The translations under genes were made by a program, and so were the position numbers. From Deltaproteobacteria bacterium (GTDB lineage Bacteria; Desulfobacterota; GWC2-55-46; JADFVP01), in contig JAJRZX010000014.1 of NCBI GenBank assembly GCA_024275045.1, positions 1-52,951 of the forward strand: 52,951 bases of DNA, written 5' to 3'. Below, in pieces: positions 13,067 through 13,925 of this stretch; the first letter of the stretch is position 1; each line of letters opens with the position of its first letter. A model generated the notes under the pieces. It did not search any database. It worked only from the letters and a program-made list of their open reading frames with translations, and was not told where the DNA came from.

Positions 13067-13315
13067 CTACCCCTTCTGCACGTATATGGTAATGGCTTCG
13101 CTGCCCTCAAGAGTCCCTTCTTGTATACCAAGCACGGTGTTTCCCGATGCCCGTGCCCAGACAGGGAGGTCTGTCTTAGATACAGGGTCGTCGGTAATAA
13201 CCTCAAGCACCTCACCTGTCTTCATATCCTCAAGCATGAGGGCCGTCTTTACCGATGGCATGGGACAGGTCATGCCGCGCGCGTCAAGGCGTCTTTGCGT
13301 CTCTATCTTTTCCAT
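13067..13315 (-). CDS. TusA/SirA-like sulfur-carrier protein
   Basis: Seen: 82 residues, one TusA-like domain. The sulfur-accepting motif D-A-R-G-M-T-C-P-M-P has its cysteine at 17, followed by the V-K-T-A-L-M-L-E-D-M helix, G-E-V-L-E-V-I-T-D-D-P and the final beta strand. Known: TusA relays persulfide sulfur from cysteine desulfurases to tRNA thiolation or molybdenum-cofactor pathways; SirA-like relatives have other sulfur roles. Inference: a persulfide carrier. The gene diverges from the Sec-rhodanese gene, 140 bases away, so two sulfur-transfer proteins share one control region. Here the active site is a normal cysteine codon, not TGA. Confidence 0.88.
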   Translation of the reverse strand: MEKIETQRRLDARGMTCPMPSVKTALMLEDMKTGEVLEVITDDPVSKTDLPVWARASGNTVLGIQEGTLEGSEAITIYVQKG

Positions 13316-13393: not shown

Positions 13394-13422
13394 TTGATTT
13401 TTAAGGACAATTGTGTGATAAT
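13394..13422 (+). promoter_or_regulatory. Sigma-70 promoter of the rhodanese gene
   Basis: -35 TTGATT (13394-13399), 17-base spacer, -10 GATAAT (13417-13422) with an extended TGT in front. AAGGAGG and the ATG at 13456 follow. Confidence 0.7.
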
Positions 13423-13455
13423 GTGCCATTATAACTTCTAAGGAGGTCTGAATAT

Positions 13456-13857
13456 ATGAAAAAAATAATACTGGCACTTGTTCTTGTATTCGCCATCTCC
13501 ACATTGGCCTCAGCCGTTACAATTCAGGACGTTGTAAGGGTTACGCCTGAAGAAGTGATGGCCGATATGAAGGCCGGGCACAAGATACTTATACTTGATA
13601 TACGCTCAAAGGGCGCCTATGAATCAATGGATATCAGGATAAAAGGCGATAAACGCATCGCACCTGATGACCTTGAGGCCAGGATGTTTGAGCTGCCAAT
13701 GGGCACGGAGATAGTTACATACTGTACGTGACCACATGAGGCATCGAGCGCAGGTGCTGCGTTCTATCTCATGAAAGCGGGTTTTAGAAGAGTAAAGGCA
13801 TTAGACGGCGGTCTTGCCGCCTGGGTAAAGGCCGGAGGGCCTATAGAGAAAAAATAG
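13456..13857 (+). CDS. Exported rhodanese-domain selenoprotein (in-frame TGA read as Sec)
   Basis: Seen: an ATG preceded by AAGGAGG opens a frame with a signal peptide (cleavage near A-S-A|V at about 20). The rhodanese fold follows (D-I-R-S-K-G-A-Y, active loop Y-C-T). Codon 92 is TGA (13729-13731). The same frame then runs 41 more codons, P-H-E-A-S-S-A-G-A-A to the rhodanese hallmark D-G-G-L-A-A-W, ending at TAG 13855-13857. One base change (TGA to TGT or TGC) would give the common C-x-C-P-H-E loop, so selenocysteine replaces the second cysteine. A SECIS hairpin begins 4 bases later, and a terminator overlaps the TAG. Known: Sec-containing rhodaneses have been reported from bacterial metagenomes. 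Inference: a periplasmic C-T-U redox or sulfur-transfer protein of 133 residues. Alternative: a nonsense mutation or sequencing error. Confidence 0.85.
13735..13773 (+). promoter_or_regulatory. Bacterial SECIS element
   Basis: Outer stem CATGAG (13735-13740) pairs with CTCATG (13768-13773). The upper stem GAGCGCAG (13746-13753) pairs with CTGCGTTC (13757-13764), all eight pairs formed including one G-U, and the loop is G-U-G. The loop G is 23 bases after the UGA. Known: bacterial SECIS needs an apical G in the loop 16-37 bases after UGA on a stable stem. The GCAGGU...CUGC top resembles the E. coli fdhF element. Confidence 0.85.
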
Positions 13858-13864
13858 GCTTTTT
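13839..13864 (+). terminator. Intrinsic terminator overlapping the rhodanese TAG
   Basis: GCCTAT (13839-13844) pairs with ATAGGC (13854-13859) around a 9-base A-rich loop, followed by TTTTT (13860-13864). It overlaps the TAG at 13855-13857, so the transcript's natural end is at the downstream stop, not at the TGA. Confidence 0.65.
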
Positions 13865-13925
13865 ATCCTTTTGGTGATTTTCAGGTGTATTTCGGGGCTT
13901 TTTTTGTCCAAAAAAAGGGCTTTTT
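13860..13925. other. Phased A/T-tracts before aroC (probable curved DNA)
   Basis: Tract centres lie at about 13862, 13870, 13879, 13891, 13902, 13913 (A7) and 13923, a mean step of about 10 bp. T7 at 13899-13905 and A7 at 13910-13916 can also form an A-U hairpin. Curvature is inference. Confidence 0.5.

Follow-up and report, generated by a model that had tools for sequence, protein, structure and literature searches.

An exported CxU rhodanese with a predicted selenocysteine in a Deltaproteobacteria genome

Our analysis indicates that a gene of Deltaproteobacteria bacterium (assembly GCA_024275045.1, contig JAJRZX010000014.1) encodes a rhodanese in which an in-frame UGA, codon 92, is almost certainly decoded as selenocysteine (Sec) by the SelA, SelB, SelC and SelD machinery, directed by a hairpin located just 3' of the codon. 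Taken as a whole, an exported single-domain Sec rhodanese that uses Cys90 and Sec92 in a sulfane-sulfur mechanism is a quite probable explanation of the locus. The gene lies in a window of 52,951 nt, the whole stretch of DNA analysed, from an assembly fragmented into 156 contigs, and its main features are the following:

13067-13315, minus strand: TusA-family sulfurtransferase gene, a divergently transcribed neighbour (Pfam TusA, 7.9e-22)
13394-13422, plus strand: sigma-70-like promoter match TTGATT-17-GATAAT with TG before the -10 (9/12 match, not significant)
13440-13446, plus strand: Shine-Dalgarno AAGGAGG, seen in the sequence 5' of the ATG
13456-13857, plus strand: predicted coding sequence of the exported CxU rhodanese selenoprotein, 133 residues including Sec92, stop TAG
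13456-13515, plus strand: signal peptide M1-A20, with KK, a hydrophobic core and an A-S-A cleavage site (LASA/VT)
13723-13725, plus strand: Cys90 codon (TGT), the catalytic rhodanese Cys position by alignment
13729-13731, plus strand: UGA codon 92, read as Sec from the frame and from conservation among relatives
13735-13773, plus strand: putative SECIS hairpin, outer stem 13735-13741/13767-13773 and apical stem 13746-13753/13757-13764
13746-13764, plus strand: conserved apical SECIS stem-loop, with the invariant loop G at 13754

An in-frame UGA conserved among relatives

The frame contains a single TGA, two codons past Cys90 in the motif Y-C-T-U-P-H-E, and then continues for 41 codons to its TAG. 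An initial annotation, made from the letters of the window, had described this passage through TGA92 to an intact rhodanese C-terminus, and its coordinates, codon number and tail length all proved exact. By itself a tail of this size carries little weight, since readthrough of the window's other TGA-ended genes would add 0-58 codons. The Shine-Dalgarno and the signal peptide that had been noted are also clearly present, and the signal peptide layout is common to nearly all exported orthologues; in an AlphaFold2 model its residues 1-20 have a pLDDT of about 62, compared with >90 thereafter. The promoter, which had been called good, is weaker than that, as the one match found has to be set against 1.5 expected from shuffled sequences. 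Besides the TusA-family gene, the other neighbour is a chorismate synthase gene.

Conservation in relatives is the decisive evidence for the proposed Sec reading. Of 97 related genomes, 45 have a form with TGA at the aligned codon. The surrounding motif is usually Y-C-[TSA]-U-x-x-E, and these forms are mostly exported proteins of about 133 residues or cytosolic ones of about 110. A collection of named genomes added 80 loci from other genomes, labelled Deltaproteobacteria, Acidobacteria, Rokubacteria, Methylomirabilota, Myxococcota and Chloroflexi, of which 75 carry TGA and 5 Cys (74 CxU, one UxU and 5 CxC, with locus L163 classified by eye). At codon 92 the homologue alignment holds TGA or Cys (the latter in L078, L128, L138, L139, L140 and L149) and no unrelated residues, in line with the Sec position first proposed. 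Protein identity is 20-26/40 past the TGA, compared with 16-23/40 ahead of it, and third codon positions vary most. In a gene tree built on few columns and with many unresolved forks, the window protein falls in one group with its family's exported orthologues (support 98/89) and the CxC forms are scattered. A search for relatives on viral contigs found none encoded there.

The distribution of the TGA form also follows that of the Sec machinery. SelA or SelB scored above cut-off in 45/45 genomes with the TGA form (SelA in 41, SelB in the other four, which are fragmented assemblies). SelA is missing from five close relatives, of which one is a complete genome in a single contig; all five also lack SelB above cut-off, and the rhodaneses they have are canonical or distant ones, with no TGA form among them. 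This co-occurrence is significant overall (Fisher p = 0.003) and within the class (p = 4.8e-5). Of the checks proposed early on, all those that could be run favoured Sec. The presence of sel genes in the genome itself, one of these checks, was borne out: selA (541 bits), selB (326 bits) and selD (371 bits) each exceed their curated cut-offs, and tRNA-Sec (selC) was found with Infernal (69.5 bits) and also called as tRNA-SeC by ARAGORN. The selD gene (L051, contig C5:9470-10390) lies beside selB and has one in-frame TGA, so SelD is probably a Sec-containing protein as well. In addition, the genome has a second CxU rhodanese (L010:1507-1839, contig C107) with an in-frame TGA in Y-C-T-U-T-D-E and no signal peptide, which falls in a well-conserved cytosolic clade; the SECIS stem did not appear in its minimum-energy fold.

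The hairpin that had been described as SECIS-like folds as claimed, with an upper stem of 8 pairs and its loop G 23 nt past the UGA. Its predicted energy is -17.5 kcal/mol (z -3.2), equal stability was reached in 1/200 shuffles, and pairing this good arises in only 0.14% of synonymous recodings. The outer stem, which had been regarded as perfect, does form 7 pairs in the window; it is however specific to the window, most relatives forming 2-4 of the 7, and its conservation among relatives, tested in the register of the window, was not found, the apical stem being conserved instead. Across 61 TGA loci, with five core pairs each in the apical stem, 298 of 305 pairs form, compared with 182.6±6.4 in synonymous shuffles (z ~18, a value that overstates independence because the loci are related and a few near-identical, with an excess far beyond what kinship explains). 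The loop G is found in 61/61 of these loci and is followed by U in 58/61, and among further TGA loci, which overlap partly in genomes with the first set, all five core pairs form in 72/74 and the loop G is present in 74/74. These comparisons point to selection on the apical stem of the putative SECIS that goes beyond what the protein code requires. An Rfam search of 13400-13900 gave no match even at E = 5, and thus the SECIS assignment rests on comparative pairing and not on a library model. The CxC homologues retain 3-5 of the 5 core pairs, so that Cys forms contrast only mildly with TGA forms in stem loss; it is the synonymous-codon test that carries the argument.

These data bear directly on the other ways in which TGA92 could be explained. 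With translation table 11 the open reading frame ends at TGA92, as it would if the codon were a true stop and the gene a 91-residue truncated rhodanese or a pseudogene, but we judge this very improbable: the same codon is kept across phyla, protein conservation continues beyond it, the SECIS stem is conserved, the genome has sel genes and truncation would delete the helix that follows the catalytic loop. The fragmented assembly, and the single base that separates TGA from TGT or TGC, could also suggest a sequencing or assembly error of a Cys or Trp codon (TGT, TGC or TGG). Such an error is indirectly ruled out by the SECIS and by the recurrence of this TGA, both in the paralogue within this genome and in dozens of genomes assembled independently of one another, and we assign it a negligible probability. 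Equally negligible is a genome-wide reassignment of UGA, for example to Trp, Gly or Cys, which would likewise account for readthrough of an in-frame TGA; the code is not reassigned, given that 7/39 large genes of the window end at TGA as an ordinary stop, and the genome also encodes a dedicated tRNA-Sec and SelB.

Rhodanese fold and proposed chemistry

The Pfam Rhodanese family (PF00581) matches residues 31-125 of the readthrough protein, spanning the TGA (6.5e-11, 43 bits, cut-off 22.2), and the AlphaFold2 model is a confident rhodanese fold with a mean pLDDT of 90.6. In the PDB the fold matches rhodaneses of a single domain as well as rhodanese domains that belong to larger proteins, CoA-disulfide and persulfide reductases among them. 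According to the alignment and the model, Cys90 directly follows the strand 85-89 and occupies the place of the catalytic Cys, where the central strand ends, and a helix starts at residue 93, right after the predicted Sec92, so that the loop bordered by Cys90 and Sec92 is very short. The single-domain thiosulfate sulfurtransferases GlpE and PspE share the rhodanese fold (1gmx is a fold match), their catalytic Cys aligns with Cys90 and the GlpE profile gives 42 bits; they differ in having no Sec and a six-residue loop, C-x-x-G-x-S/R, whereas the window protein has C-T-U-P-H-E-A. The canonical GlpE-type loop (C-x-x-G-x-[RST]) is therefore absent, and sulfurtransferase activity is not to be presumed.

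We propose that, like its orthologues, the product would leave the cytoplasm by means of its signal peptide, with the Sec translocon as the most likely route. In the periplasm, Cys90 could pick up or attack sulfane sulfur (a persulfide, polysulfide, thiosulfate or related chalcogen) and Sec92, at the start of the following helix, would resolve the Cys90 intermediate. This resolution would free sulfide or hand the sulfur on, leaving a Cys-Sec selenenylsulfide that a periplasmic electron donor would re-reduce. The assignment of persulfide or chalcogen chemistry to Cys90, with Sec92 resolving, is drawn from the short loop that places the two residues between strand and helix, and we advance this periplasmic sulfane-sulfur and redox mechanism tentatively, with a little less than even confidence.

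In class-level relatives (L102:2158-3968, L103, L107, L098 and L106) the exported CxU rhodanese is encoded beside SoxA/TsdA-type and multihaem c cytochromes, a context consistent with redox work on sulfur in the periplasm. In order-level relatives (L088-L095) the gene follows those of a CheR methyltransferase and a Cache/HAMP hybrid histidine kinase, which suggests a signalling operon. Neither the cytochromes nor the CheR and histidine kinase genes adjoin the gene in the window, and because neighbours vary between families, the context fixes no substrate or redox partner. TusA was considered as a conserved partner; among the genes that recur beside this one in relatives it was not conspicuous, and it was not counted as evidence.

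The protein could also be a Sec protein that is no sulfurtransferase, either a periplasmic thiol/selenol redox protein active in disulfide or peroxide reduction or a component of selenite, tellurite or metal reduction, a role proposed for the ExtH rhodanese operon of Geobacter. We regard this as a real though minority possibility, roughly one chance in three. CxC and CxU pairs are redox motifs that would also suit a thiol:disulfide oxidoreductase, the canonical rhodanese loop is missing, and in Geobacter ExtH is a rhodanese-family lipoprotein encoded in a cytochrome operon in which ExtI affects selenite and tellurite reduction (PMC6148476, PMC5877670). Furthermore, in class-level relatives the gene lies beside that of a multihaem cytochrome distantly like ExtKL; this likeness, however, is far under the cut-off (67 bits, cut-off 250), neither cytochrome nor ext-type genes were recognised immediately next to the window gene, and its nearest sulfur-related neighbour is the TusA-family gene.

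Relation to catalogued selenoproteins

CxU rhodaneses already have an entry among the selenoprotein families, as 'rhodanese-like domain-containing protein form 3' (NF041203, CxU, example TKB26178.1; PMC13188914), also listed as 'COG0607 form 2, CxU' (PMC9312934). The view that a periplasmic C-T-U form is unusual did not survive this comparison, as the family was already catalogued and the exported form is common in the lineage. Nor is the export of a Sec protein unusual, since others are known, for instance ExtKL, a periplasmic cytochrome with predicted Sec encoded in the extHIJKL operon (PMC6148476). NF041203 (rhodanese_LYCAU) is the nearest NCBIfam model, and the window protein shares with this family the fold, the CxU position and a single domain with an N-terminal extension; it differs in having YCTUPHE and not LYCAU, and in its score of 91.8 bits, below the curated cut-off of 115. 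Exported orthologues pass the same cut-off, with 118.9 and 122.8 bits in the same order and 162-171 in the phylum. By orthology, the window protein is thus very probably a divergent member of the NF041203 family that misses its formal cut-off.

Other systems are more distant. ExtH of Geobacter sulfurreducens (extHIJKL), likened here by description only, is likewise an exported rhodanese of a deltaproteobacterium, but it is a lipoprotein from a cytochrome/porin operon, whereas the window protein has no lipobox Cys near A20 and no ext operon. TsoB (NF045694, a rhodanese/DsbD fusion-like selenoprotein) also combines a rhodanese domain with Sec; it differs in its fused DsbD-like domain and its UxxxxU motif with two Sec (PMC13188914), and the window protein scores only 10.9 bits against it.

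UxU and fused rhodaneses in relatives

Some relatives carry TGA both at the catalytic Cys and at the +2 position. These candidate UxU rhodaneses (L171/L095 in genome G008, L168/L076 in G069, L169 in G406 and L170 in G385) come from four genomes of four different families and are scattered on the gene tree. Their motifs are LYUTUPDE, LYUTUPNE, LYUAUPDE and LYUAUPNE, with a SECIS-like stem behind each. The UxU pattern gave five hits, one of them spurious, against 2 hits for a reversed-pattern control in 395 genomes; the spurious one, L172, was discarded as a chance match in a 19-residue frame that is no rhodanese. In addition, roughly every second named locus encodes the C-terminal portion of a longer protein. 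Membrane proteins of Acidobacteria and Rokubacteria fuse DedA (VTT) to a rhodanese with TGA at the CxU position and a SECIS stem, a few having Cys (L104:3395-4357 and L143:647-1633, the two tested, and many of L104-L167), and proteins of similar length also occur in Methylomirabilota and Myxococcota. Trypsin-like protease-rhodanese fusions with TGA in CxU were seen in Rokubacteria (L144:2747-4381, assigned from Pfam, and also L155 and L157).

No description of UxU rhodaneses, or of Sec in DedA- or protease-rhodanese fusions, was found in the literature searched, which does not by itself prove novelty; from their sequences, these predicted proteins are possibly new. It is quite possible, at somewhat less than even odds, that CxU rhodaneses are a broad and mostly unrecognised Sec superfamily with exported, cytosolic, DedA-fused and protease-fused members, several lineages of which would be UxU and work via a diselenide. 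If true, this would be a diselenide chemistry of which no case is described for rhodaneses in the literature searched.

The gene of the window is, for its part, a secure and divergent addition to an already catalogued selenoprotein family, and the finding is largely an expected one. The protein would go undetected by the curated family model, and plain table-11 gene finding would shorten it to 91 residues. Lastly, as natural versions of one small domain, the CxC, CxU and predicted UxU forms offer a ready enzymology series on why a rhodanese needs selenium.
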